Assembly: GCF_000003605.2 (NCBI RefSeq)
Contig: NW_003114460.1
Location: 1,436 to 31,688, forward strand
DNA length: 30,253 bases
Reading direction: 5' to 3'
From: Saccoglossus kowalevskii
Lineage: Eukaryota > Hemichordata > Enteropneusta > Harrimaniidae
In this document: positions 2,955 to 19,100 of the stretch, in pieces
Position numbering within the stretch: position 1 is the first letter of the stretch
How the letters are laid out: every line of letters starts with the position of its first letter
Made by a program: the position numbers and the translations under genes
Notes under the pieces: model-generated
The model's database searches: none
The model's input: the letters and a program-made list of their open reading frames with translations, nothing else
Told to the model about the DNA's origin: nothing

Positions 2955-3974
2955 ATGGCTGGAGGAACACTCGATACGCAGGTGAAACAATATCGCAACC
3001 GTGGGACAAATCTGCAGGGCATTGTAACAGTTCTTCCAACGCTGGTTGAACTTGACGAAATCGATGTTGTAAGTTGCGCTGATGATGAAGAGGACCGAGT
3101 GAATACAGTAGACAGTAATACGGCGAGCTGTAAACAAACCGAGAGCTACAGTGGCCATAGAAAAAACAATATCGGAAATAATGGTTACACTTGTCCTAAA
3201 GAGAAACCAACACCGAAAATACCACAGAAATTTAAACATGGACTAAACAACGAGCGGTGTCTTCATCCAAAAACACTAGTAAAAGAGTCTTTGCCTCATC
3301 CAATTACTTACGATTACAAAGCAGTGTCCTCATACTATGATACCGAAGTGAAGTCCCTGGAACCGATAGTGCAATCGCTGTTAAAGGGACGAGACAGGAA
3401 ATATTCACAAACTTTAAAAAGTGAAGAAAACAATGAACGAGTCTTTTTGAATGTGAAGAAGTTCAGTATTTCCGAGCCAGTCGTCCCCAGCCAAGAATCT
3501 ACAAGATCATCAAGTTCAATGTCTAGCAGCAACGTGACTCTCGCGTCGACATTGAGTACCCCGAGAGAGCTGCTCTTCGATACTCGCACAGAGCGGGCAA
3601 ACCAATATTTGCAGAACCGCCGGATAACCACCAAAAAGTGCGGTTCTGTAGGATTCTCAGATGATAAAGATATAGCCCAGAGGACTATCACGATTTCGTA
3701 TTCTAAAAGACCTCACATAATATCACCACAGGCCATTACAAGATATACTCTATACGAGGGGAGAAAGTCATACATTCGAAACATGTACGTGGCGAGATTA
3801 GAGAGGCGACTACAACAATTAGCAGCAAAAAGACGTCAGTGGGATATCGACAACAACAGGATACAATCGCACGAAGAAAACGATACGGACATCGACCAGT
3901 CAACGGATGACGAGGTTTCATGCTCCAGCGGGCTACATAATTGCAGATACCTTCGTGGAAGTATTCGACGATAA
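2955..3974 (+). CDS. Gene 1: unrecognised protein, 339 aa, paralog of gene 2
   Basis: The ATG at 2955 has a strong context (GTGAGTATGG, A at -3 and G at +4). An in-frame TGA at 2922 bars an upstream extension within the exon. The 339-aa product is polar, with no signal peptide or membrane segment, so it is probably cytosolic or nuclear. Four segments match gene 2 in the same order: GIVTVLPTL (residues 22-30); a block starting LPHPITY and running to VKSLEPIVQSLLKGRD (113-147); a charged helix with LERRLQQLAAKRRQ (282-295), likely a short coiled coil; and NCRYLR (329-334), five residues from the C-terminus. Serine-rich linkers (181-202) lie between them. It lacks gene 2's RVRF motif and RxxSxP sites. 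I do not recognise the family. The coding call is firm; the function is unknown. Confidence 0.85.
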   Translation: MAGGTLDTQVKQYRNRGTNLQGIVTVLPTLVELDEIDVVSCADDEEDRVNTVDSNTASCKQTESYSGHRKNNIGNNGYTCPKEKPTPKIPQKFKHGLNNERCLHPKTLVKESLPHPITYDYKAVSSYYDTEVKSLEPIVQSLLKGRDRKYSQTLKSEENNERVFLNVKKFSISEPVVPSQESTRSSSSMSSSNVTLASTLSTPRELLFDTRTERANQYLQNRRITTKKCGSVGFSDDKDIAQRTITISYSKRPHIISPQAITRYTLYEGRKSYIRNMYVARLERRLQQLAAKRRQWDIDNNRIQSHEENDTDIDQSTDDEVSCSSGLHNCRYLRGSIRR

Positions 3975-5876
3975 CACAAACAGGAAATGTATTGTATTTG
4001 TAATTCAATCAGATATACAATAACTTATTATCACTGTATCATATATGAGAACCGTTAATACTAATTTTACGTTACATTACACAAATATAACGGCAAATAT
4101 CCGCCCCATTGATCAGTTAGAGATAATACACATTTTTGAAGGATTTCCAAATCACTGATAGCGGCTGTTAGTACTAGTATGTAAGCCTATTTAAAGAAAA
4201 AAAATACAAACAAAAAACAGGATTTTGCATCATAACATTGAGAAAATGTCAGTTTAATTTTTTTAATGGGTTGTTGTTTCGACTACTTCTGTGGAATTTA
4301 AGGGATACATCAGTTCGTAACCTTTTACACGTGTTCTTTGTACGCATAATTAAACTTTACACATGTCACGTGATTATACGCAAGACTACACTAGTACATT
4401 GCATACATACATACAAGATTACGCCTTATTCAAATAAAGAAACGCGAGCCCCCATATTCCTAGCTTATCGTCGAGTCCTTGAAATCGATAGTAACTATAA
4501 CAATCAGGAATGATGATATGTAGTAACAACGACCAATTCCGAGTTATTTGACCGATTTTCGTCCTATATCGTTTTTCACTAGGAATATATTCATCACATC
4601 ATTACCACTCTGACATGTAACAATATACTCTATTTGTTCATACATGATAAATACTTTACATTTGAATTATTCTAACAATTGCTGCTTTGAGTATTGCCAT
4701 GACAACGATGTACAATATATGGTACTTCGTGTTATTTATGAAATCTACACAGCACTGGGTTGAGAAGTGCACACGACGAACAGATTGGTTCAATCTGAAT
4801 GATAAAATGATCAAGCATATTCAAATCTTTCAGACAGTTTGGCTTATCAAAAATGACATTAAACGAATTAACTGGTAATTCGGTATATCAAAATCATGAT
4901 GGCGGGCGCCGATAGACTAATTTGAGCATATTAGTTAATATATCAAGTGTATTTCTCTCAGAAAATGACGTCATCAAATTAGGTTATAGAAATGAACATT
5001 CGCTAGACGCGGTAATTTCGTTGTTCTATATATATACTACAATGACGTACGACCCCACCTTTCTCGATTAAGAAAGTCATTGACGATCGTAGTTGACGTA
5101 TGAATGAAGTGACCTATAGTATAGATTATATTTAAGTTGTATTACTTATTATAAATAACACTGCTCAGCAACTCGGATACTAGTATTACACCTCATTCTG
5201 TTTCGAAAATGATTGATATTTACAAACTTGAAGTGAACAAATTTGTTCTCATCTTCTCAATATTGAGCAACAATGCAACGCGCCTCGGGAAATTAAGCCA
5301 ATATTAAAACATGGATATTAAAAAAAAACACCATCATGGATTATTCGTTAGTAGCATATAATGTCATCGCATATTTTGCGAGCACTAAATTCACCAACTT
5401 ATGTAGTCAGTAGGTCTTTTTTGTTGGTTTCTATTTGTTAACGACAACCTCACGAAATGACGTATGCACCGATCACTAGTAAATACTTGAAATGTCTATC
5501 GAAAACACTTAGCCGGGACCATGTCACCAACCACTCCACACTTTCTATGTAATTAGGCAGACTTGCCAAGGAGCACTTGAAACACGTGACGTTCATCAGT
5601 AAGGAAGTGCAACCTCTGAAATGTGGGTTATCGTCCGCACGGCAAGTCCGATATTTCATCATGATCTTACAATGACGCTAATTTACTGTGTTGGACACAC
5701 GGTATCAAAACAATGCCTGATTTCTCGCATGTACATGTGGTGGATTTGCAGCCCTTGATTAAATGTGGTTCATTGTTTCTGGTTCATGAAATTATCTCTC
5801 GTATAGTACGCACCGAGGTTATACATCAGTAGTCAGTTATTCTCGTATGTTACGCAAACGTATGTCTCTCATACAG
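3975..5876. other. Gene 1 3' region and intergenic DNA
   Basis: ATTAAA at 4349-4354 and AATAAA at 4433-4438 are the nearest poly(A)-signal candidates for gene 1, 375-460 nt past its stop. TCACGTGA (4366-4373), ACACGTGT (4327-4334) and a CRE palindrome (4966-4973) are present. No coding exon is supportable. Confidence 0.4.
4433..4438 (+). terminator. Candidate poly(A) signal for gene 1
   Basis: This is the first AATAAA downstream of the gene 1 stop, 459 nt away. ATTAAA at 4349 is an alternative. Confidence 0.35.
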
Positions 5877-6689
5877 GAACAACTAATTACGTGGGAATTT
5901 GTTACAGATATGTAACATCAACAACTGTTCGACATGATGTGATGTCCGACATCAAAGGCATGTATCATTTACTTTGAGTCGATTTTAACGCAATTCAATC
6001 GATACGCCATTTGAAAGCAGGTGCACGAAGACATAGTTGAATTGTAAGTATAACTTTGTGTGCTAAAAACACGAAAAAAACTGGACCCAAATTTCAGATA
6101 TATAACGAACCTAAATTTTAAAGTATATACTCAAAGTTATCAATTATATGTCCCTTGTAATGTAATACTGCGGCGTGTAGGTTGCATTACTCCGCTGATG
6201 GTACAGATTTGCCTCATTCTCATCCACAGTATGTGGAACCATGATTTCAATATTCATGAGTAAAAGTCACGAAAGTGAATGAGTAAATCAGCGCGTGTTT
6301 AGAAAGAGGAAAGTTGCTTCCACGAACAAAATGATCGGTTGGTACAGTAATGGAATACGCTGATTGGTGCATTTGTAAGATATTGGATACCACGATGTAA
6401 GTGGATTTTACCACGGCGTTCTTGTGGTAACCACCAGAAGCCACAGATAGTCTTAAGTTCTGTCCGTGCCCAGCCTACTAGAGAAGACAAGAAACACAAC
6501 ACGCCGCTTTATGCGTACAATGCCGGGCTACTCGGCTAAAAGTTGGGTACGCAAACTTGAAACACATAATTAGAGGTAAATATGTTGGCCGGGCACGTCA
6601 CGCGTTTGGTGTATATGTTGCCATCTTCAAATATTTAGAACCTACTTGGAAAAAAAGATCAAACACAACACTGCTTCTCCGTAGCAGAA
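5877..6689. other. No supportable gene; one isolated acceptor
   Basis: The acceptor TGTCTCTCATACAG at 5876 is followed in one frame by 32 open codons to a TGA at 5977. That length is expected by chance and no first exon pairs with it. The donor-like TTGTAAGT near 6043 is also unpaired. Confidence 0.3.
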
Positions 6690-6890
6690 ATGAAACTAGC
6701 CCCTAGCACGTTTTCTTCTCTCTGTTATGTCATTTATGCAACTCACTTCATAGCTTTGTCTACTCTTGGCCGATGTGAATACATTACGACTTGTCAACTG
6801 GTGACAATTACTCAGCTGGTCAGGGTGTCAGAACAACAACTGAACGACGATAGTATTCTCGATAGTACTTTAACAACATGGTCATGTTAG
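6690..6890 (+). CDS. Small ORF with signal-peptide-like N-terminus, doubtful
   Basis: ATG at 6690 (GCAGAAATGA, G at -3) opens 66 codons. The first 28 residues look like a secretion signal: a short polar start, then a hydrophobic stretch containing LCYVIYATHFIAL, ending near LGRC. The remaining 38 residues are polar, with three cysteines including the last residue. It could be a small secreted peptide or a chance frame; there is no neighbour or splice evidence either way. Confidence 0.22.
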   Translation: MKLAPSTFSSLCYVIYATHFIALSTLGRCEYITTCQLVTITQLVRVSEQQLNDDSILDSTLTTWSC

Positions 6891-8359
6891 GCGTCGAAAT
6901 ATGTAACACAGGTGAAATTACTTCTCACTCATTTAAACCTTGTTGACAGCGTTAACGATATAGTAGATATAGTCAACAATCATACAGTTAAAATGCTATC
7001 TCTTCACTCGATCTATTGTGTATTTCATTGTTAGCGTAATGAGTGCTTTAACATAAAAAAAATCCCCTATAGACCACAGCATATTAACAAAATCCTATTT
7101 AATAGTTTTTTAAAACATGATTAGTAGACTGAACCTCTGAGCTGCCGGAGAATTCTTGTCATCCGTTTATAAACCCCTTGGCGCTTTACCCCAATTCCAC
7201 GCCAGTCATGGATATAATTTGTAATGCAATATGTTATAGACACGTTACTTAATAACACACACACACACAAAATGCTGACAAGTTAGTAAGCAAACAAAGC
7301 GGTCATAATTTATAATGTGTATCACGTGGACTAACGCCGTACGTGTAATGACTTGAAATGCTGTGACAAGCGTGCGGATCGATACATACCGATGCTGGTA
7401 TTAATGATGACATTTGTATGTGCGTGACATCTTGTTAACAAGAACCCACACGAAAAACGTGATTGATATAATTCTTAAATAACTCGGGATATTTAAGAAA
7501 CAATTGTTCTTCATCAGAATCTTAACGCTCTACTGAAGACAAACCTTAACCAACAGGGAATATATTTGATCTAGTGTACCATGCCGGGTGTCGTACCGTG
7601 CCGTACCGTACCGGGCTGTGGCTTAAGGCGGAGTTCCATTCCAAACACAGTGTCAGAAATGATACGCACAATCAGTAATGTCAGCGTTGACATAATGCCT
7701 TGTTATTTGTGTTTATATATTTTTATTAGAGTGTAATGGGAACCTATTTCAATGTCATAAAACACATTGCGAAACCGAAAGACAAGCAATTAGCACAGAA
7801 TAAAACAACCATCACCATGATCTAGTTGACGTATTTTAAGTGTATTTCTTATTGATCATGCCTTAAATCACATTCAATTTTTTTTTCATCCTGCCTTAAA
7901 TCACATTCAGCGATTCATCACTGTAAGCTTCTTTATAGCCATGATGATTCCGTCAACTTTAAACGGTTACAATACAGTCATAAAATATTGATAAATAAAT
8001 TACTGTTTTATCTACGGTTTGACTAACAAAGTCGTTGAGTGTACACAGACTGTCTAAGTGGAAACCGCCCAATCAGAAACACGGTTTTCTAAACCGCCTC
8101 CACCAAATTACATTTTTGGCAACAAGATATGGTCTCAGTATTTCAAATTTAGACCGATTAACCGTCTTATGTGAACATGGCTACTGATTGAAGGACGGAT
8201 CACTTGATCTGCCACCAACAAAAAGAAACCCCGTGACTTTGTCAAACTTTGTCGTCCCAGACCACGTCCTTATACGATGTCACGGCCACACAGACTGGGT
8301 TATATCTATTGAACACAGGCAATAAATTATGGTAATTTAGGAGAATTGAGTATTTCCCG
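6891..8359. other. Intergenic, no gene; short local repeats
   Basis: It holds a short CA run (7256-7269), a period-5 CCGTA/CCGTG run near 7592-7611 and an 18-bp direct duplication (7859-7909). No coding exon is supportable. Confidence 0.45.
7859..7909. repeat. Local direct duplication, 18 bp, offset 33
   Basis: TGCCTTAAATCACATTCA occurs perfectly at 7859-7876 and 7892-7909, separated by a T-rich spacer. It looks like a simple slippage or tandem duplication. Confidence 0.7.
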
Positions 8360-8464
8360 ATGGCGGTGTCCAAAGTCTATTCACTCGTAGCAAACATAGA
8401 CATTTTATCTCAGCTGATGAAAAGAGTACCGTACTTAGATCCAACAGAAACACTTGATGTCTTT
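8360..8464 (+). CDS. Candidate first exon, 35 codons, unrecognised
   Basis: ATG at 8360 (CCCGATGG, G at +4) opens 35 codons starting MAVSKVYSLVANIDILSQL. They end exactly in phase 0 at the donor CTTT|GTAAGTATT. Phase-0 acceptors downstream that leave an open frame include 9634 (pyrimidine tract CTTTTTTTTATTCTTTAG, then 18 codons and a stop at 9691), 11218 (21 codons) and 12081 (63 codons). I cannot choose between them, and a non-coding transcript is also possible. No family recognised. Confidence 0.28.
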
Positions 8465-9634
8465 GTAAGTATTTTTCTGATGCCATTTTGCTTTCTAGAC
8501 ATATCTATTAGACACAGTGACAATAGTGACAGGTCTGTTTGTACCAAGCTAGATGCATGTGCCGCTCATCGGAGTCGATCTCAGGTCTGTTAGAGAACCC
8601 ACTCTATGCTATTGTCAAAATGCGTGTTTAGGCAACCCGTTTTCGTAACAGTATCTCACAGGTAGGATCTGCTTTCATAAGCGGTAGGTGGGTTTCTATT
8701 GCTGTATACACAGTTCCCGGTCCCACTTACACAGTATTAACGACACCCTGATTTGTTTTGGTAGTGCGGCCACCTCCATAATTGTACATAATTAGAGTCC
8801 TTTACACTGTCCCACAATGGCCGGGTGGTTTACGTATGGTGTATGGGCGGCACAATCGTTAATAGGCACTACTACAAGGTTGTTTCTCTTTGGAGAAGGC
8901 GGGGGTTGAAAATTCTGTGACCTAGCCCTTGGTGAGTATTTCGTAACAGTTTTATAAGTAATATTACTTTCATGCTTTTGTTATGTGTTGTCGTGTAAAG
9001 TTGTGCCTGCTTTGAATCGTATTAGCTAAATATATCAATATATGCTATTCACCTACTGTCAAAATAATATGCTTTATGAGACGCTAAAACAAACTTATCT
9101 GGTCTCTATGACATCATGATAGGAGCTATCACAGTGGCATACGGGGGAGCACAACGTAGCCGGTGGCATCGACGACCAACTCTTCACCATAATCATCATC
9201 AAAATCGATTAACAATTCCAAGATTAATTGTAGGGTCATGGTGTATCTATTAATACATTGGGTCGTGAACAGAAAACTGGTAGTTTACATTATCATCGTG
9301 AGTTTACGTAGTACCAATATTTAATTATTAGGATTATTTGCTTAAAAAACTTCTTTCTTGGGCGAATTTCGTCACGTCTGATCATGATCATAATGGATTG
9401 GAAGACTTGTGTCTGTGCTTAATCGGTCATAATTGTATATCTTCAGAGAAATTGACAAAAAAAAAAAAAAAACACTTAGCGTTGACCGTATTTTATGAGT
9501 GAGTGCCACCGTAGTTTGTTAATCGACCATCACAAGTGACATGGCGATATTGTCCTGCTCTTCTGTGCATAATTGACCAACATTTCAATAGTTTGTAGAA
9601 AATGGCGACTAATCGGCTTTTTTTTATTCTTTAG
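8465..9634. other. Possible intron of the 8360 model, or intergenic
   Basis: It contains a run of 16 A at 9457-9472 without an upstream AATAAA or a visible target-site duplication. An ATG with good context at 8817 is followed by only 31 codons. It ends in a very strong acceptor at 9634. Confidence 0.3.
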
Positions 9635-9691
9635 GGTCGCATTATTCCCATTCGATACGCAAGCACTTATACCCCGAACAACATACCTTAA
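9635..9691 (+). CDS. Candidate terminal exon after a strong acceptor
   Basis: After the acceptor at 9634, phase 0 gives GRIIPIRYASTYTPNNIP and a stop at 9691, matching the phase of the exon ending at 8464. The other two frames also remain open for 20 and about 50 codons. The acceptor is better supported than the reading frame. Confidence 0.22.
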   Translation, partial: GRIIPIRYASTYTPNNIP

Positions 9692-10224
9692 AAAATAACC
9701 GCAATTTTATTTATGACCTACGTGTCGTTTTACTTCGATATAGTTGCTGTACATTAATCGTTCATATGCCTTGCGTCACAGAGTTCAATTAGATTGTATT
9801 TCAATGACGGCAGTTTTCTGTAATTAGATTGTGGAATTGAAATTAAAATATACGCGTTGTAAAATTTAGTTAATTTTAGAAAATCTGTTGACGGTTGTCA
9901 AAGCAACTGCCCTCTATTCTAAAGTGTGATTTCAAAGCCGCCGCTAATTTTTTTGTTTTGATGATATAAAAAAGACGTCGATACCGGAATATGATTCAAC
10001 AAGCATGCTGCTCAATATATACAATTGGTTCTATTTAAAGTATACATGGGTCTTGACGAGTTGGTGACCCTTCACTAAATCCTCAGATTAAAGGCTGTAA
10101 ATAACCTCGAGTCACCGTCCCTTTTCAAAAGCTTGACTTAGTGTGTCGTACGTCGACCACGACCATTGTACAATGTCTGTCGAATACGGCGTGAATGTTC
10201 GTAGTAATCCGTGGGACGTGGCAG
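9692..10224. other. Intergenic region ahead of the small IQ-like gene
   Basis: It is AT-rich, turning CpG-richer from about 10140 toward the TATA box at 10225. That suits a promoter-proximal region. No gene is seen. Confidence 0.4.
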
Positions 10225-10232
10225 TATATAAG
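10225..10232 (+). promoter_or_regulatory. TATA box of the small IQ-like gene
   Basis: TATATAAG lies 44 bp upstream of the ATG at 10269 in a CpG-richer patch. Transcription would start near 10255-10262, where TTTCAATC resembles an initiator, leaving a very short 5'UTR with no upstream ATG. Confidence 0.5.
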
Positions 10233-10268
10233 TAGGGTATCAGAGACGTAGTGGTCGTTTCAATCAAC

Positions 10269-10359
10269 ATGGAACCACACTCGTGCGCAGTTCGTACGTC
10301 GCTTTTATCCGATTCGGTTCGTGTCCACGAAAGAATGGTCCCTCAAGGCTGCTATGCTT
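10269..10359 (+). CDS. Small IQ-like protein, exon 1 (30 codons + 1 nt)
   Basis: ATG at 10269 has an excellent context (ATCAACATGG). The frame, starting MEPHSCAVRTSLLSDSVRVH, runs 30 codons plus one base to the donor GCTT|GTAAGTAATG, so the intron is in phase 1. The nearest good acceptor in matching phase is at 10878, 518 nt on, giving a 58-aa protein. The same phase would also fit the gene 2 exon at 14444, so this could instead be an alternative first exon of gene 2. The closer partner and the exon at 12414-12519 make that less likely. TATA box, start context and donor agree with each other. Confidence 0.5.
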
Positions 10360-10878
10360 GTAAGTAATGCAACGGTAAGACTTATCGCCGTGTACGAACC
10401 AACCATTGCAGTGCAAGAACAGCATATTATAAAACGCGACGTCACAACTTGGTACGTCGATATCTTAGTCCGCTTAGTACACGCAACGTACGAGGACAAC
10501 GGTTGCCTGGGGTCTGTTTGTCTGCATTCACGGTGATACCGCGGTGTTAAGTAAAACCAGGTACATGACATTATAGGGGTGGGGTGGGGGTTCGTATAAT
10601 GTTGTCAATTTATACGGGGTATCTTTTTCATATTAGTTTTGCTTTATTTTGGATACTTAGAAGTTAATGCTTTCTATTGATATTGCGTTGCTATGATACC
10701 CTAAATTAGTCTAGTTCCAATACCCACGTCCCCATTAACACGCATGTTAACCGTAATCTAAGTATAATTGGAACCTGTAATCTCAATACGACAAGTCATT
10801 ACATTCCTATTTATTTACGTTTTTCGTCACATCGAGCGATTGATATAGATTTCATTACCACGACTTTGATTCTTACAG
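10360..10878 (+). other. Intron of the small IQ-like gene
   Basis: The intron starts GTAAGT and ends GATTCTTACAG, 519 nt. Open frames inside it on both strands look like chance. Confidence 0.4.
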
Positions 10879-10964
10879 TGGATATAAAGCAAGCGGCGAT
10901 AGCTGCGTCTTTCCAGCTTTGGCAAAAACGCACTTCAAAAAAACGACATGGTGACTTCGGTTGA
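10879..10964 (+). CDS. Small IQ-like protein, exon 2 (calmodulin-binding-like helix)
   Basis: In phase 1 the exon completes a leucine codon and then reads DIKQAAIAASFQLWQKR, a basic tail and a stop at 10964. The total is 58 aa. The pattern I-x-A-S-F-x-x-x-x-x-R preceded by AA resembles the C-terminal IQ motif of small calmodulin-binding proteins of the PEP-19/neurogranin type, which are of similar size. Two hallmark IQ residues differ: the usual Gln is Ala and the usual central Arg is Gln. Calmodulin binding is therefore an inference. The local rise in CpG and the clean acceptor support a real coding exon. The first AATAAA downstream is at 11463. Confidence 0.45.
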
Positions 10965-12292
10965 AATACTACAACATCGACCCTGACGAACAGAGAAGAC
11001 TAGCTCTCTATATATAGAACGAATGGCTGTGTCTGAATACGCACACTACAATAGAATCATCTGTTCAATACTGTCCACACTAGAGTTACTCCACTTAATC
11101 ATTCAAACAGGATTCCGTTTGTCATCGGCAAGTTAGCATGTTCTTTTTTAAACAAAATCAAAGGTATATTCCATTTAGTAATAGCGTGGCTTTTTATTAT
11201 TATTTTTTTTTACTACAGTTTAGCAAACAAAGTCACGGACACGATCACGTGACCACTGACGTCATAGATCAAGCTGAGATATAATAAGGTTAATATCTTC
11301 GTGACAATTCAAACCTCGCACTGATTTTCAAGTGATACCGTGATAGGAAATGCTGTAAATTATAGTCGATGACGTATATTATTCGTGTGGGGTCATAGGC
11401 CAGACGTGAAGTGTCAATCAGTTACGACAACGCGATTTCATTGATAACAGTGTTAGTTCAGCAATAAATTAAATGATATTTTACATCATCGGTCAATTTA
11501 TCCAATCAACTCGAACATGGATTGATATATACCCTTCCTCGTTGTTGTTAATTTTGGATCAGTCAGGCGATTCAGACCGTGGCCGTGGCATCATAGATGG
11601 ACATTATTGTATCACCCCCTCCCATATATCGCCACCTGTAGTGGTTGTCATAAACAAAAAAAGAAAATGTGGAATTATTAATAATAATAATTTGTTTGGA
11701 TTCAAGGGTGATTTTATAGGGAAGATATGAAACGAGTAATACACACGTTTCTTTAAAATCTTACGCACAATAACTGCGGCGTCTTTCATAAAATGCTATA
11801 TAGTGATTAAACAAAAACAAGTGTCAATTGTCTAGTACGATAAAATCACGGATTCAATTTACATCAAAGCTAAGGTAATACTTATTTTGGCCGAGGCCCC
11901 CACTAGTTTGGAAAACAGACCTGTTAACGTCGCTAGAAAGAAAAAAAAAACACACTGACAGAACCAAGGGCGCTGCCACAGCAAACATACCTGTGCTAAG
12001 AGGGAACCCACCGTTACGTAGGGATTGAAAACGCATTACCAATACTCAGCTGCTTAGCGACATGCTGTGTTTATTTTATAGGAGGTGACCTCTTACAAAT
12101 TAATCCCTGTATACGCAGTAGTACTTGAATATATATATAGCCAATGGAAAGCATGCGTTGTCCAAGTCACGAATGGGTACGCTGACTATTTGTACGGCGA
12201 TGGACGCCACCTCGTGCGTAATGCCATTGATATGAACTGTTTGTGTGGATTGACCGAGTGTAATCCAATCTAGGTCATCCACCTTGCCTGAG
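10965..12292. other. Region with two unpaired strong acceptors
   Basis: A long pyrimidine tract and CAG at 11218 opens a 21-codon frame starting FSKQSHGHDHVTTDV. A second acceptor, GTTTATTTTATAG at 12081, opens a 63-codon frame starting EVTSYKLIPVY that ends at 12273. Both are in phase 0 and could pair with the exon ending at 8464, but neither is compelling. The candidate poly(A) signal for the IQ-like gene is at 11463-11468. Confidence 0.35.
11245..11264. promoter_or_regulatory. Composite E-box (TCACGTGA) and CRE (TGACGTCA)
   Basis: TCACGTGA at 11245-11252 and TGACGTCA at 11257-11264 are perfect palindromes separated by 4 bp. They lie about 1.1 kb upstream of gene 2's probable first exon, so they could be an upstream control element. 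They also fall inside a possible 21-codon exon, so coding coincidence cannot be excluded. Confidence 0.35.
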
Positions 12293-12301
12293 TATATATA
12301 A
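12293..12301 (+). promoter_or_regulatory. Candidate TATA box of gene 2 (distal)
   Basis: TATATATAA would place the transcription start near 12323. The resulting leader of about 90 nt has no ATG before the one at 12414, so this geometry suits the proposed gene 2 first exon. Confidence 0.38.
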
Positions 12302-12388
12302 TTCAGAAGTATTTCTGTTAGGAAGGACCGTCGGTGAGATCGTAGTTTCAAGCAGACTTAGTCGCACCTTTCCAAATTCGATAGTCGT

Positions 12389-12396
12389 TATATAAA
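12389..12396 (+). promoter_or_regulatory. TATA-like sequence close to the gene 2 first ATG
   Basis: TATATAAA is a better match than the one at 12293, but it lies only 25 bp upstream of the ATG at 12414. A start 30 bp downstream would skip that ATG. If used, the first ATG would be 12445, in a frame that does not enter the gene 2 main exon. Confidence 0.3.
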
Positions 12397-12413
12397 CTCG
12401 TGTGCGAATAGCA

Positions 12414-12519
12414 ATGGTGTTAGAGAGTAGACATCGTACTAGTTATGGGATTAACGCTCGAGCAAACAACGGCAGTATTGACAAACAAACAGAAAATATC
12501 GCGCGTAAGAGTTGTCATG
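12414..12519 (+). CDS. Gene 2, probable first exon (35 codons + 1 nt)
   Basis: ATG at 12414 (TAGCAATGG, G at -3 and +4) opens 35 codons starting MVLESRHRTSYGINARANN, hydrophilic like the rest of gene 2. They end one base past a codon at the donor GTCATG|GTGAGT. The gene 2 main exon needs exactly one base from its predecessor, so the phases fit and the joined codon is GGT. The same donor also fits a strong acceptor at 13114, which would end the protein after 21 further residues. Cassette or alternative use is possible. Confidence 0.45.
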
Positions 12520-13114
12520 GTGAGTTATACGTCCTTACATGGACATCTCGTTGTTTTAATTCTTAGTTTTGTAATACAAATATGACTTGACTTGTGTGTA
12601 TACCAGTCTTTGTCGGTCTCTGACTCGGTAAATTCTCCGACAAACTCAACTTATACAACTGGCCAAATGCCTGCTTTGTCGCGATGGGTTTAGCAAACCA
12701 CGACTTTTTTTAATTTCAATCAATCAATAATTGCAATTTATATAAACTCTGAACAATTGCTTAACCAGTAAACGCATGCGTGCTTCTTTAGAGGCGATTT
12801 ACTTAACTGTGATGAACTGTATTGTAATCAACAAGTTGTTTGGCTGGCTGACCTTCAACGTCGTGTGTGACACCATCAAGTCTTATGAAACTAGGCTCCG
12901 ACTGAATGCAGACAACTCGAACACTCCTTAGACACTTTATACTAGAAGCCATTATGTTTTTTTTAATATTATATATCAGATATACCCGTTATCACCTAGA
13001 ATCAGAACAGATTTGCTATCTTGAAAAACGGTCTGTGAGTGCTACTACTAAACACTATAATTACATCTAATAATTCCGTGGCACAGATCCGCCTTCTCCT
13101 ATTTCCTGTTCCAG

Positions 13115-13176
13115 CTCAGCGAACAACTCCTAGCAATGACGAGGATTACGACCGTGACGTGGTGGTTGGAACAACT
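13115..13176 (+). CDS. Possible alternative terminal exon of gene 2 or of a small gene
   Basis: The acceptor CCTATTTCCTGTTCCAG at 13114 is the strongest in this intron. Joined in phase 1 to the donor at 12519 it gives Ala, then QRTTPSNDEDYDRDVVVGTT and a stop, for a 56-aa product. Composition is acidic and coding-like, with codons such as GAC GAG GAT TAC GAC. Phase 0 is also open, for 41 codons. Either it is a short isoform, a separate two-exon gene sharing exon 12414-12519, or chance. Confidence 0.3.
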
Positions 13177-13479
13177 TGAAGTCACTACACGACATTTACT
13201 AGCGATTTCAACGCCCCATTTATACTGTCGAATGCTTTGATTATTATTTTTTTCAATTGCCATGCATTTCAGTGATTATTATGTCTGAAATAAAACAAGG
13301 CTGGGTCATGGTAGTATTTATTGGAATATATTCGGACAAACCGTAAAACACTTTTCCCTCATACCATACTCTCAGTGGTGTGATATTACGGAAAGCAAGT
13401 ATCTTGATAGCTGACACTTTAAGTTCTATTGTTTCACTGGCATTGTAAATACGCGAAAAACAACTTTGCCTCGACTTAC

Positions 13480-13544
13480 GTGTCCAGGTACCCATCGTCG
13501 GGTGCATATCCAGCCTCTCTCGGCTCGCTTCGCTCTAGACTCAT
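13480..13544 (-). CDS. Candidate minus-strand first exon inside the gene 2 intron
   Basis: On the minus strand, ATG at 13544 opens MSLERSEPREAGYAPDDGYL plus two codons to the donor GACAC|GTAAGTCG, in phase 2. A TATTTATA lies about 32 bp upstream. The patch is richer in CpG than its surroundings. The next good minus acceptor (CAG at 13287-13285) gives only four more codons before a stop. Another frame through the same stretch, containing MCTNESRAKRAERGW, is also open and ends in phase 0. Short and unproven. Confidence 0.2.
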
Positions 13545-14443
13545 TTGTACACATGTAAACAGCCTGCCGTATAAATAACAACCCCAATTCAACACGAAAC
13601 TCGTAAAAATAATCGACACATATATTCATTGTTACTATAGTAGTTTTAAAACAACACGCACGATAAAAAAAACCTCCTTACAAGCAGTTAAAAATTGAAC
13701 ACGGACATAGCGTTGAAATCTTTCGTGAAAACGTTGCCTGCTAGCTGACCTTGTGTTACTCAATGTTGTCAGACACGTAATACAGAAAACATACCAGTTT
13801 GACCCTCGGCGCAATTCTTGATTTCAAATGCATTATTCAAACGTTACCTGCGTTTTTGCCTGACTCGGCGTTAATATTAATATTCCAGTCGACTATTTTT
13901 AATTAACTTTTGTGTTGGTATACCGCCTTCCAATTAGCGTATATACAACGTAATCCCTTGCAAACTTAAACAATCTGTTGATGCCAACACTCTTTCCGTG
14001 CTCAACTATAGATAGTATCAAAACGTCGAATTCCAGGGCCCTCGTTCATTTGTTTCTAGTTCTTACTTGTAACATATAAGGCCCCGTCTGAATGCAACGT
14101 TGTGGCTTTTTGACCCCAGCGTCACATGATTCTTGTTTATGCCGCCAGCCATTCTACTTCACTCACTGATTAGCTGGCATACCTTGTTATTGGCAACCAT
14201 CATGTTGATTTGTTTGTTCGTCTACCCTCGGGCTGCTTAACGAGAATTACTACGGAGTCATGAAAAGTATTTTTAATTCAGCTTTGTTGACAGTCTCAAT
14301 TCAATATGAATGTTCTGTAAGTTTTGAAATAACCCTAGCCTGGGGAAGGTGAGGTTAAAAGTGGGACACTTACAAAAGTCACCATGGCCTGGTTGTTTAT
14401 TGATTATTTGAGTTCATCATTCTAATTTGATTTAAAATTTCAG

Positions 14444-15930
14444 GTGTGAAGCTACCGAAGCTACCAAGTCCCACGTTCTCCGAAACTACGGATGGTGTCA
14501 ACAACGTTAACGCCACACTCATTCCGGCTGATGAAGTACGTTTGAAAAGACAGCGGATAAAACATTTAATGACTAAAAAAGAAGAAAGAAAGGGAATAAT
14601 CAGTGTTATATCTGACGGTAAAACGTTGTGCGATATCATGGAGGACGAGAGTCATTTCGCTCAAACAGAAGACGACGTCTTCATGATAAACGTGAAAAGT
14701 CCAAAATCGATGATTGACGAGGAGGGCGCTGTTAGTAATAGTGGATGCGATAACGGGGGCAGAAATGTTTACTCGGCAGACAGTAAAGTACGGCGCCGCG
14801 TTCGGTTCAGCCTACCTGGAATGGGCGGGAAATGTCTATTTCCCGCCAGAGTAGAGGAAGAACTCCAACGCGTTCGACGATTCTCGACACCTTCAATGGT
14901 CGGCAATTTGTCGAGAGACGAAAGTAGTGACGACACTACATGCGGCGAGATACGACGAACACGTAAAAGTAGTTTACCACCGATAAATTATACGGTAGAG
15001 ACTTTCTATGAAAGCCAGGTAAAATCCGTGGATAAACTAGTGAATTCGTTGGTGTCCAGGGACACACCCGGTACACCAAGGGAAGATTCAGCAACAAAAA
15101 ACTCCAGTTTAGGATCAGCACATTTTTTAGCCGCCATGAAATGTTCGTCAGACAGTGACGATGTTGAAGACGATTCCGACGATTCCGAGGATAATATTCC
15201 AATGGAAGAAGATCGAGTTACAACTGAGTCGCCTTTACAGTCTATTAATGAAAATACGGCGATTTTGACGCCATCTCCGCTCATGTCCATTTCTTCTCCC
15301 AGAGTTCCAACTCCGCGTCGACGCAGAATGGGTGTTGTGAACTATAACACTGGAACACCTCAAGACAATACATTTAAACCGGTGTCCAGGATGTCTAATG
15401 GCACACCCGATTCAACGTCGCGAAGTATTGACGCTCGAGACCAACAGCTAACAAACAAAAACGGGTCTTCGTCGAATACGAACAATATAGGTTCTCCTGA
15501 ATCACGCAGTCCAAGGAACTCTTTGACGACGCCCCCAAAGTTGCTAAAGCGAAGAGCGGTCTCGCTGGGTCAGAATGCCAAACCGGATCTTGCTGCACTG
15601 GAACCCATGTCCAAATCATCGTCTTTTACACCAGACTCTGCCAAAGATAACGTTAACCGCGAGCAAGAAATGAAAAATCTTGAGTCCAAATTGGGATCTT
15701 TGAGGATCCGTAAACGTGAAATTAAATCGTACGGAAACGTAATTTCCGAGAGTCTTTCACCCCTACAACCAGAGCGACAGACACAGAGATCATTCAGAAC
15801 GAGGCGCAAATCATTGCCTTCTACAATGCCACCTTCACCAGTACTGATAACGCCAGAAATAGATTTTGCGTCATTGGAAAACTGTCGATATTTGCGGAGA
15901 AAACCATCCGATGAAGATATAGAACACTAA
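14444..15930 (+). CDS. Gene 2 main (terminal) exon: phospho-motif-rich protein, paralog of gene 1
   Basis: The exon follows the acceptor TTTAAAATTTCAG and has no ATG near its 5' end, so the start lies upstream; with exon 12414-12519 the protein is about 530 aa. The exon-encoded part is 494 aa, polar, low complexity and rich in SP/TP sites, with an acidic serine patch at exon residues 234-250. Motifs shared in order with gene 1 are GIISVI (50-55), LPPINY through VKSVDKLVNSLVSRD (177-206), the helix NLESKLGSLRIRKRE (411-425) and NCRYLR (479-484). Unlike gene 1 it has RRRVRF (116-121), matching the RVxF docking motif for protein phosphatase 1, and three RxxSxP sites (RRFSTP 144-149, RKSSLP 173-178, RRKSLP 453-458) of the 14-3-3 mode-1 / basophilic-kinase type. 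A regulatory scaffold role is inference. No family recognised. Confidence 0.88.
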
Positions 15931-16140
15931 GACTAACACTTTTTCGTAGATGTGTATAGCGCCACCTGTGGTCGTAGATGGCTTTTGTTGCTTTATTATC
16001 AAGTTGATTATTTTTTTCTGCTCGTTGTGTTCTGCCAATAATTATTAATCTGGTCTTATTTTACACAACTGGCAGCATCAACCACCGAGTCTTGGGAATC
16101 ATTCACATCGGAAATCTCCAGTGAACACAACTCTAAGGCA
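15931..16140 (+). other. Gene 2 3' flank before the minisatellite
   Basis: It has T-rich stretches and an AATAAT near 16038, but no AATAAA. There is none in the minisatellite either, so the gene 2 transcript either uses a variant signal here or runs through the array. Confidence 0.45.
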
Positions 16141-19100
16141 ACATAGCCTGTAATTATCTATTTAATGGAGGAACCTAAACTCTAATCATGTATCCTGGAG
16201 AGAATTTATACTGTAATCATCTATTGACAAGGGAACCTAGACGATAATCATCTATTAATGAGGGAACCTAGACTGTAATCATCTATTGGTGTAGAAACCT
16301 AGACGTAGTCATCTATTGATGTAGAAACTTAGACTGTAATCATATATTAATGAGGGAACCTAGACTGTAATCATCTATAAATGAGAGACTCTAGACTGTA
16401 ATCATCTATTAATGAGGGAACCTAGACTGCAATCATCTATTGATGTAGAAACCTAGACTGTAATCATCTATTAATGAGGGAACCTATACAGTAATCATCT
16501 ATAAATGAGATACTCTAGACTGTAATCATCTATTAATGAGGGAACCTAGACTGTAATCATTTATTATTGTAGAAACATAGACTGTAATCATCTATTGATG
16601 AAAGAACGTTGACTGCAATCATCTATTGATGTAGAAACCTAGACTGTAATCATCTATTGATGTAGAAATCTAGACTGTAATCATATATTAATGAGGGAAC
16701 CTGGACAGTAATCATCTATAAATGAGAGACTCTAGACTGTAATCATCTATTAATGAGGGAACCTAGACTGTAATCATCTATTGATGTAGAAACCTAGACT
16801 GTAATCATCTATTAATGAGGGAACCTATACAGTAATCATCTATAAATGAGATACTCTAGACTGTAATCATCTATTAATGAGGGAACCTAGACTGTAAACA
16901 TTTATCGGTGTAGAAACCTAGACTGTAATCATCTATTGATGAAAGAACGTTGACTGCAATCATCTATTGATGTAGAAACCTAGACTGTAATCATCTATTG
17001 ATGTAGAAATCTAGACTGTAATCATATATTAATGAGGGCACCTAGACTGTAACCATCTGTTGATGAAAGAACGTTGACTAAAATCAACTATTAATGAGGG
17101 AACCTAGACTGTAATCATCTATCGACAAGGGGACATAGACAGTAATCATCTATAAATGAGAGACTCTAGACTGTAATAATCTATCAATGAGGGAACCTAG
17201 ACTGTAATCATCTATTGATTAGGGAACCTAGACTGTAAACATTTATCGGTGTAGAAACCTAGACTGTAATCATCTATTGATGAAAGAACGTTGACTGCAA
17301 TCATCTATTGATGTAGAAACCTAGACTGTAATCATCTATTGATGTAGAAATCTAGACTGTAATCATATATTAATGAGGGCACCTAGACTGTAACCATCTG
17401 TTGATGAAAGAACGTTGACTAAAATCAACTATTAATGAGGGAACCTAGACTGTAATCATCTATCGACAAGGGGACATAGACTGTATTCATCTATAAATGA
17501 GAGACCCTAGACTGTAATAATCTATTAATGAGGGAACCTAGACTGTAATCATCTATTGATTAGGGAACCTAGAATGTAATCATCTATCGATAGGAACCTA
17601 GACTGTAATCATCTATTGGTGTAGAAACCTAGACTGTAATCACCTATTGATGTAGAAACCTAGACTGTAATCATCTATTAATGAGGGGACCTAGACAGTA
17701 ATCAGCTATTAATGAGGGAACCTAGACTGTATTCATCTATTGATAAGGAAACCTTGACTGTAATCACCCATTAATGAGGGAACCTAGACTGTAATCATCT
17801 ATTGATGAAAGAACGTTGACTGCAATCATCTATTGATGTAGAAACCTAGACTGTAATCATCTATTGATGTAGAAACCTAGACTGTAATCATATATTAATG
17901 AGGGAACTTAGACAGTAATCATCTATTAATGAGGGAACCTAGACAGTAATCATCTATTAATGAGGGAACCTAGACTGTAATCATATATTAATGAGGGAAC
18001 CTAGACTGTATTCATCTGTTGATGAAAGAACGTTGACTGTAATCATCTATTGATGTAGAAACCTAGACTGTAATAATATATTAATGAGGGAACCTAGACA
18101 GTAATCATCTATTAATGAGGAAACCTAGACAGTAATCATCTATTAATGAGGGAACCTAGACTGTAATCATATATTAATGAGGGAACCTAGACTGTATTCA
18201 TCTGTTGATGAAAGAACGTTGACTGTAATCATCTATTGATGTAGAAACCTAGACTGTAATAATATATTAATGAGGGAACCTAGACAGTAATAATCTATTA
18301 ATGAGGGAACCTAGACAGTAATCATCTATTAATGAAGGAACCTAGACTGTAATCATATATTAACGAGGGAACCTAGACTGTATTCATCTGTTGATGAAAG
18401 AACGTTGACTGTAATCATCTATTAATGAGGAAACCTAGACTGTAATCATCTATCGACAAGGGGAAATAGACATTAATCATCTATAAATGAGAGACTCTAG
18501 ACAGTAATCATCTATTAATGAGGGAACCTAAAATGTAATCATCTATCGATAGGAAACTAGACTGTAATCATCTATTGGTGTAGAAACCTAGACTGTAATC
18601 ACCTATTGATGTAGAAACCTAGACTGTAATCATCTATTAATGAGTGGACCTAGACAGTAATCATCTACTAATGAGAGAACCTAGACAGTAATCAGCTATT
18701 AATGAGGGAACCTAGACAGTAATCATCTATTAATGAGAGAACCTAGACAGTAATCATCTATTAATGAGAAAACCTAGACTGTATTCATCTATTAATGAGG
18801 GAACCTAGACAGTAATCATCTATTAGTGAGAGAACCTAGACAGTAATCATCTATTGATGAGGGAACCTAGACAGTAATCATCTATTAATGAGGGAACCTA
18901 GACTGTAATCATCTATCGATGTAGAAACCTAGACTGTAATCATCTATTAATTAGGGAACTTAGGCTGTATTCATCTGTTAATGAGGGAACCTAGACTGTA
19001 ATGATATATTGATGAAGGATCGTTGACTGTAATCATCCATTATTGATCAAACATGGACATTAACCATTTACTAATGAGTGAACACAGACTATCAATTTCT
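16141..19100. repeat. 31-bp minisatellite, about 95 copies, with higher-order structure
   Basis: The unit is 31 bp, containing CTAGACTGTAATCATCTATT followed by AATGAGGGAAC. Variant units carry GATGTAGAAAC, GATGAAAGAACGTTG, AAATGAGAGACTC or CGACAAGGGGAC. The marker AAAGAACGTTGACTGC recurs at 16601, 16942 and 17283, a period of 341 bp (11 units). A related marker recurs at 18025, 18211 and 18397, a period of 186 bp (6 units). Units at both edges (16141-16230, 19020-19100) are the most diverged, as expected if unequal exchange homogenises the middle. It is not coding: 31 is not a multiple of 3 and stops occur in every frame. Confidence 0.95.

Follow-up and report, generated by a model that had tools for sequence, protein, structure and literature searches.

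A C-terminal LxxCRYLR tail as the probable unifying element of a small family of predicted disordered proteins in Saccoglossus kowalevskii

Relatedness of genes 1 and 2

The stretch of DNA analysed here (the window; 30,253 nucleotides from the hemichordate Saccoglossus kowalevskii, equal to C803:1436-31688 in our numbering of contigs) carries two genes, termed gene 1 and gene 2, whose products look like diverged duplicates in a small and fast-changing family of disordered proteins, the function of which is a guess. An earlier note on the window had regarded these genes as tandem paralogs that define an unrecognised protein family by four short collinear segments, namely a GI segment, an LPxPI..VKS..RD core block, a charged helix and an NCRYLR tail near the C-terminus, and both reading frames were indeed found where it had put them, on the plus strand. 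The comparisons described below indicate that the family is real and that the LxxCRYLR tail, rather than the set of four collinear motifs, is its unifying element.

The kinship of genes 1 and 2 is borne out by their best local alignment, with a raw score of 91 against a maximum of 79 among 2000 shuffles, and by a core block and a tail that both exceed chance. In single comparisons, BLASTP aligns the block with 15 identities over 34 positions (E of 3e-4) and the NCRYLR tail with 7 identities over 10 (E of 0.033). A 17-residue core taken from gene 1 locates the block of gene 2 with a score equalled by none of 3000 shuffles, and a six-residue word common to the last 60 residues of the two proteins arises in 6 of 20,000 shuffles. 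One could suppose that two unrelated disordered proteins carry block and tail by coincidence, as the matches are confined to short segments and the end-to-end alignment is weaker, being reached by 14 of 2000 shuffles. However, we hold such a coincidence to be very improbable, since no shuffle reaches the local score, two segments occur in the same order and the tail is present in further genes.

The remaining two segments fare differently. The region upstream of the block, inside which the GI segment lies, reaches a score of 35, where shuffles average 30.4 and 550 of 3000 do as well, and because it scores like shuffled sequence the GI segment is no evidence of kinship. The region between block and tail, which includes the charged helix, has a marginal score of 52, which 180 of 3000 shuffles equal or exceed. 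The collinearity described in the earlier note is therefore retained in part: the block and the tail rise above chance, the charged helix is marginal and the GI segment is at the level of chance, and the common order holds for the pair, whereas a search for the block in two other tail-bearing genes, L012 and C4174 (introduced below), did not find it. As the definition of a family the four motifs have to be given up, given the chance-level GI segment and a VKS..RD block of which the sequence examined gave no instance outside the pair.

Recurrence of the tail in the genome

A degenerate 24-base pattern for LxxCRYLR, designed from genes 1 and 2 together with the L012 gene located further along the same contig, has five matches in the readable part of the animal's own genome (572,110,611 bases in 4830 contigs) as compared with one for the reversed control. 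These matches fall in gene 1, gene 2, L012 and contigs C4174 and C4557, so that three of the five are on C803, a contig of 639,053 bases or about 0.1% of the genome. Since three of the matches were used in building the pattern, only those on C4174 and C4557 are independent of its design. The C4174 match is in frame within a 435-residue open frame (L029:286-1593) that ends in LDKCRYLR followed by 22 residues. The C4557 match, which would read CSYFR and is within no long frame, is an apparent chance match.

For both the L012 piece and C4174, the score of a tail profile made from genes 1 and 2 is attained by none of 3000 shuffles. Genes 1 and 2, C4174 and L012 (the last with a broken frame) each have LxxCRYLR towards the C-terminal end of a long open frame, and a fifth gene, L013, has GIRYLR in its place; apart from these five genes, the loci retrieved contain no frame of 60 or more residues with [RK]YL[RK] at most 40 residues from the end. 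No second frame with such a tail occurs in the flanks of C4174 (L031 and L032, about 5 kilobases (kb) per side). The family proposed from genes 1 and 2 is thus larger than the pair. The L013 protein aligns with the C-terminal piece of L012 over 76 residues that run through RYLR (BLASTP E of 3e-6; none of 3000 shuffles). BLAST did not list this pair at a cut-off of 0.05, which we take as an effect of the cut-off on its heuristics, and the shuffle test is independent of it. A search of the genome with the last 114 residues of L013 returned L013 itself and the L012 gene (E of 0.70) and no others. The core profile is weak in L013 (97 of 3000 shuffles).

Broader comparisons add little to these genes. 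Profiles from the alignments of genes 1 and 2, run over the window and the retrieved loci, gave nothing beyond the pair better than an E of 0.6 for the core or 1.5 for the full length, and in 14 local comparisons (seven sequences against genes 1 and 2) the pairs L012a-gene 1 and L016a-gene 2 were matched by 5 of 500 shuffles each and the other 12 pairs by 23 to 474 of 500. Families of disordered proteins elude similarity searches, since mostly short motifs survive in them; here, whole-protein searches of one genome returned the query only, whereas a degenerate pattern for the tail revealed relatives.

Searches for a named family

The earlier note had recognised no named domain in either protein, and this agrees with our searches, which covered Pfam-A, PDB sequences and open-access papers. 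No Pfam-A family reached its cut-off in scans of both proteins, their conserved pieces and the readable neighbouring frames. The best PDB sequence matches have E of 0.49 for gene 2, 0.2 for C4174 and 0.49 for L013. The string NCRYLR does not occur in the open-access papers searched, and the titles listed for CRYLR deal with clinical matters such as sutures, resins, glue and plant extracts. The Anillin_N family (PF16018) matches gene 1 at 14.8 bits, or 19.3 bits when the C-terminal piece is taken alone, against a cut-off of 27 that neither score reaches; the match spans a 29-residue stretch only, and gene 2 has no such match.

It can be asked whether the tail is the mark of an older and already named animal family, the disordered remainder of which has diverged past the reach of Pfam. 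A cysteine-containing tail in four proteins that can otherwise hardly be aligned is what would be seen for an old linear motif. The failure of every protein and piece scanned to reach a Pfam cut-off, the weak PDB matches and the absence of NCRYLR from the papers searched argue against a named family, and we consider it unlikely.

Predicted structure

AlphaFold2 models of the two proteins, built on shallow two-sequence alignments, have mean predicted local distance difference test (pLDDT) values of 41.5 and 42.5 and are of low confidence over most of each chain. In both, the core block is a low-confidence helix and a confident helix precedes the tail at the same relative position, and the predicted helices come in the same order in genes 1 and 2. 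Gene 2 has an additional N-terminal helix at residues 28-57, its block pLDDT rising to 72 at most, whereas gene 1 shows short helices of low confidence in that part. As modelled, the proteins are predicted to be mostly disordered with few helices, and the position of the C-terminal helix appears to support the charged-helix segment of the earlier note better than sequence does.

Docking and phosphorylation motifs

According to the portion of PMC3792071 available to us, the RVxF motif through which proteins dock to protein phosphatase 1 (PP1) often has basic residues before it and acidic residues after it, with SILK lying N-terminal to it. Under two strict RVxF consensus forms taken from that portion, RRVRF of gene 2 and RSVRF of L012 fit both and KSISF of C4174 fits one of the two. 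Strict RVxF is thereby present in three of the five tail-bearing proteins (P of 0.019 by shuffles) and in five of the ten proteins tested (P of 0.004 by shuffles), with the caveat that both the consensus forms and the ten proteins were picked after looking and that kinship is shown for only part of the ten. In L012 the motif is followed by EMSDNKSD. In C4174 a SIMR sequence, close to SILK, is separated by 13 residues from KSISF; it is the only near match to SILK, and genes 1 and 2 have none. Judged against the flanking pattern in that part of PMC3792071, C4174 and L012 would seem to fit well and gene 2 in part, and gene 1 would not. Simple Arg/Lys-directed and Ser/Thr-Pro patterns of our own making give 6 and 19 candidate phosphorylation matches in gene 2, respectively, and 3 and 3 in gene 1.

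A proposed reading and its main alternative

Because three of the five tail-bearing proteins hold a strict RVxF, we tentatively propose that the family consists of disordered adaptors, with RVxF docking PP1 and the tail docking another partner, a possibility that we put somewhat short of even. Its members would keep just the LxxCRYLR tail, helices and linear motifs. The tail would dock a single constant partner, the C-terminal helix would pair with a protein, and RVxF, in the members having it, would recruit PP1, with phosphorylation as a possible switch in view of the many candidate sites in gene 2. Gene 1, with no strict RVxF, may have lost or relaxed the PP1 step. A bolder formulation is in our estimate rather improbable. 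It would have the LxxCRYLR docking tail define an animal family, not described before, of disordered proteins that target PP1; the family would have dispersed into a loose cluster along one chromosome, with divergence leaving only tail, helix and phosphatase-docking motif recognisable.

Several observations weigh against the family or against its proposed role. Searching the animal's own genome with the proteins of gene 1, gene 2 and C4174 returned the query only (4, 4 and 2 candidates scored, respectively). The core profile is not above shuffles in L012b (1601 of 3000), L012c (734 of 3000) or C4174 (927 of 3000), and for gene 1, gene 2 and C4174 the comparison of their final 100 residues with the L012 piece is no more than suggestive (43, 37 and 105 of 3000). 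Taken by itself, GIRYLR scores within shuffles of L013 (318 of 3000), so the place of L013 in the family rests on its alignment with L012. When the final 100-residue stretches are compared, neither gene 1 nor gene 2 matches L013 (2538 and 1463 of 3000, respectively), and hence the two genes connect to L013 via the tail of L012. Strict RVxF is present in neither gene 1 nor L013, its positions are unaligned between family members, the forms and proteins were chosen after looking as stated above, and in gene 2 RRVRF is followed by SLPG, with no acidic residues. Lastly, low model confidence need not mean disorder, because the models rest on two-sequence alignments.

Equally likely, in our view, is that the family is real and unrelated to PP1, its members being coiled-coil or cytoskeleton-associated scaffolds whose tail and C-terminal helix would interact with each other or with a cytoskeletal partner, the RVxF matches being due to chance. 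The confident C-terminal helices in the models of both genes are consistent with such scaffolds, as are a coiled-coil-like block common to the neighbours L014, L015 and L016c (E of 2e-11 and 1e-5) and the weak Anillin_N match of the gene 1 C-terminal piece (19.3 bits against 27). However, that match is sub-cut-off and limited to 29 residues, the block of these neighbours is not established in genes 1 and 2, and the RVxF enrichment, modest as it is, speaks for PP1. Under the PP1-adaptor proposal and the scaffold alternative alike the finding is a modest one, and more so if the family is already named; a tail that bound a fixed partner would be a docking motif open to testing with a peptide.

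Locus, gene models and neighbouring genes

The window is AT-rich and intron-bearing, and the models of genes 1 and 2 (Table 1) were derived from sequence alone. Directly upstream of gene 1 a splice-acceptor-like site was seen by eye, and a 5' untranslated exon may lie ahead of it. The long open frame of gene 2 spans 14446-15930 with a splice acceptor before it; the two coding exons are joined in phase across a gt-ag intron to give 530 residues from an ATG start. Between the two genes there are five frames of at least 80 residues, with sizes of 83 to 91, and two further frames of 90 residues, overlapping the end of gene 1, and 80 residues, overlapping the start of the gene 2 long exon.

Table 1. 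Coordinates of genes 1 and 2, their segments and tail-type neighbours (window positions unless a locus or contig is named)
Feature	Position	Strand	Remarks
Gene 1	2955-3974	+	single open frame, 339 residues
Gene 1 GIVTVL segment (first motif of the earlier note)	3018-3035	+	not above chance
Gene 1 core block KESLPHPITY..VKSLEPIVQSLLKGRD	3282-3395	+	from alignment; low-confidence predicted helix, residues 121-144
Gene 1 C-terminal helix, residues 258-310, contains LERRLQQLAAKRR	3726-3884	+	AlphaFold2; block pLDDT 77-90 at residues 271-300
Gene 1 tail LHNCRYLR	3933-3956	+	5 residues short of protein end
Gene 2 coding exon 1	12414-12519	+	inferred from frame and splice sites
Gene 2 coding exon 2	14444-15930	+	494 residues in frame up to stop
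Gene 2 GIISVI segment	14593-14610	+	not above chance
Gene 2 RRVRF	14794-14808	+	fits both strict PP1-docking RVxF forms (available part of PMC3792071)
Gene 2 core block KSSLPPINY..VKSVDKLVNSLVSRD	14965-15063	+	from alignment; low-confidence predicted helix, exon-2 residues 184-206
Gene 2 C-terminal helix, exon-2 residues 396-436, contains LESKLGSLRIRKR	15631-15753	+	AlphaFold2; block pLDDT 80-92 at residues 401-430
Gene 2 tail LENCRYLR	15874-15897	+	10 residues short of protein end
L012 gene	L012:7492-9112 = C803:108492-110112	-	91 kb past gene 2; ends SLEECRYLR + 14 residues
L013 gene	L013:3759-5315 = C803:114759-116315		about 5 kb from L012 gene; ends GIRYLR + 17 residues

A minisatellite in which a 31-base unit is present in 94 copies occupies window positions 16136-19046, beginning about 200 bases past the stop codon of gene 2, and may be part of the 3' untranslated region of that gene. 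The window has a third long frame, P0003 (22464-23729), which encodes a basic protein of 421 residues that carries the repeat ERPKTAR three times and a variant of it, ARPRTRGRR. A Pfam scan of P0003 gave no family at cut-off and a search of the animal's genome matched it to itself only (1 candidate scored). As a family member it was rejected, its comparisons with genes 1 and 2 being within shuffles (372 and 277 of 500, respectively).

Downstream of the window, C803 was taken in 20 pieces of 10 kb, of which 11 are N throughout, 6 partly so and 3 free of N, the readable parts being mainly at 101-151 kb and 231-241 kb. The L012 gene is split into three frames with breaks near short single-base runs, reflecting either an assembly error or a pseudogene, and its pieces were compared separately. 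L013 shares a helix, HRTTAE, with the frame L016:6794-7534 (E of 2e-4), which has no RYLR. C803 is seen to hold four tail-type genes and one tail-less relative of L013 within about 150 kb, much of it unreadable.

Beside the CRYLR genes there is a second diverging group, all on the minus strand (L014:6123-7148, L015:2745-3647 and L016:906-1745, the last termed L016c), with a common coiled-coil-like block of 44 residues; the E of 2e-11 is that of L014 with L015 and the E of 1e-5 that of L015 with L016c. The coil of L013 is suggestive at best when compared with L014, L015 and L016c (201, 22 and 49 of 1000 shuffles). At about L016:7707-7740 (minus strand), after a splice-donor-like gtgagt, the frame reads SLQNRYLW and then a stop, resembling SLENCRYLR without its cysteine, possibly a decayed tail end or a chance occurrence. 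A tandem repeat, TTGTHDWHPRLA-like in one frame, covers L015:1-545 and the end of L014, with several frames open on both strands.

Comparison with known systems

Two known systems bear comparison with the family. The N-terminus of Anillin (PF16018) resembles a short stretch of the gene 1 C-terminal helix, at 19.3 bits, but the score is under the cut-off of 27 and no such match is seen in gene 2. Disordered PP1 adaptors are a scheme already known, to which this family would belong on the PP1 reading; the family itself was matched to no named one in Pfam-A, PDB or open-access papers. From PP1 interactors that dock through RVxF, such as LAP1B in the available part of PMC3792071, it differs in that gene 1 and L013 are without a strict RVxF, that no named family was matched and that its members are known here from their sequences. 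The likeness to these interactors would lie in the mostly disordered state predicted for the proteins, in the strict RVxF matches of gene 2, L012 and C4174, and in the SILK-like site that stands N-terminal to the RVxF of C4174.

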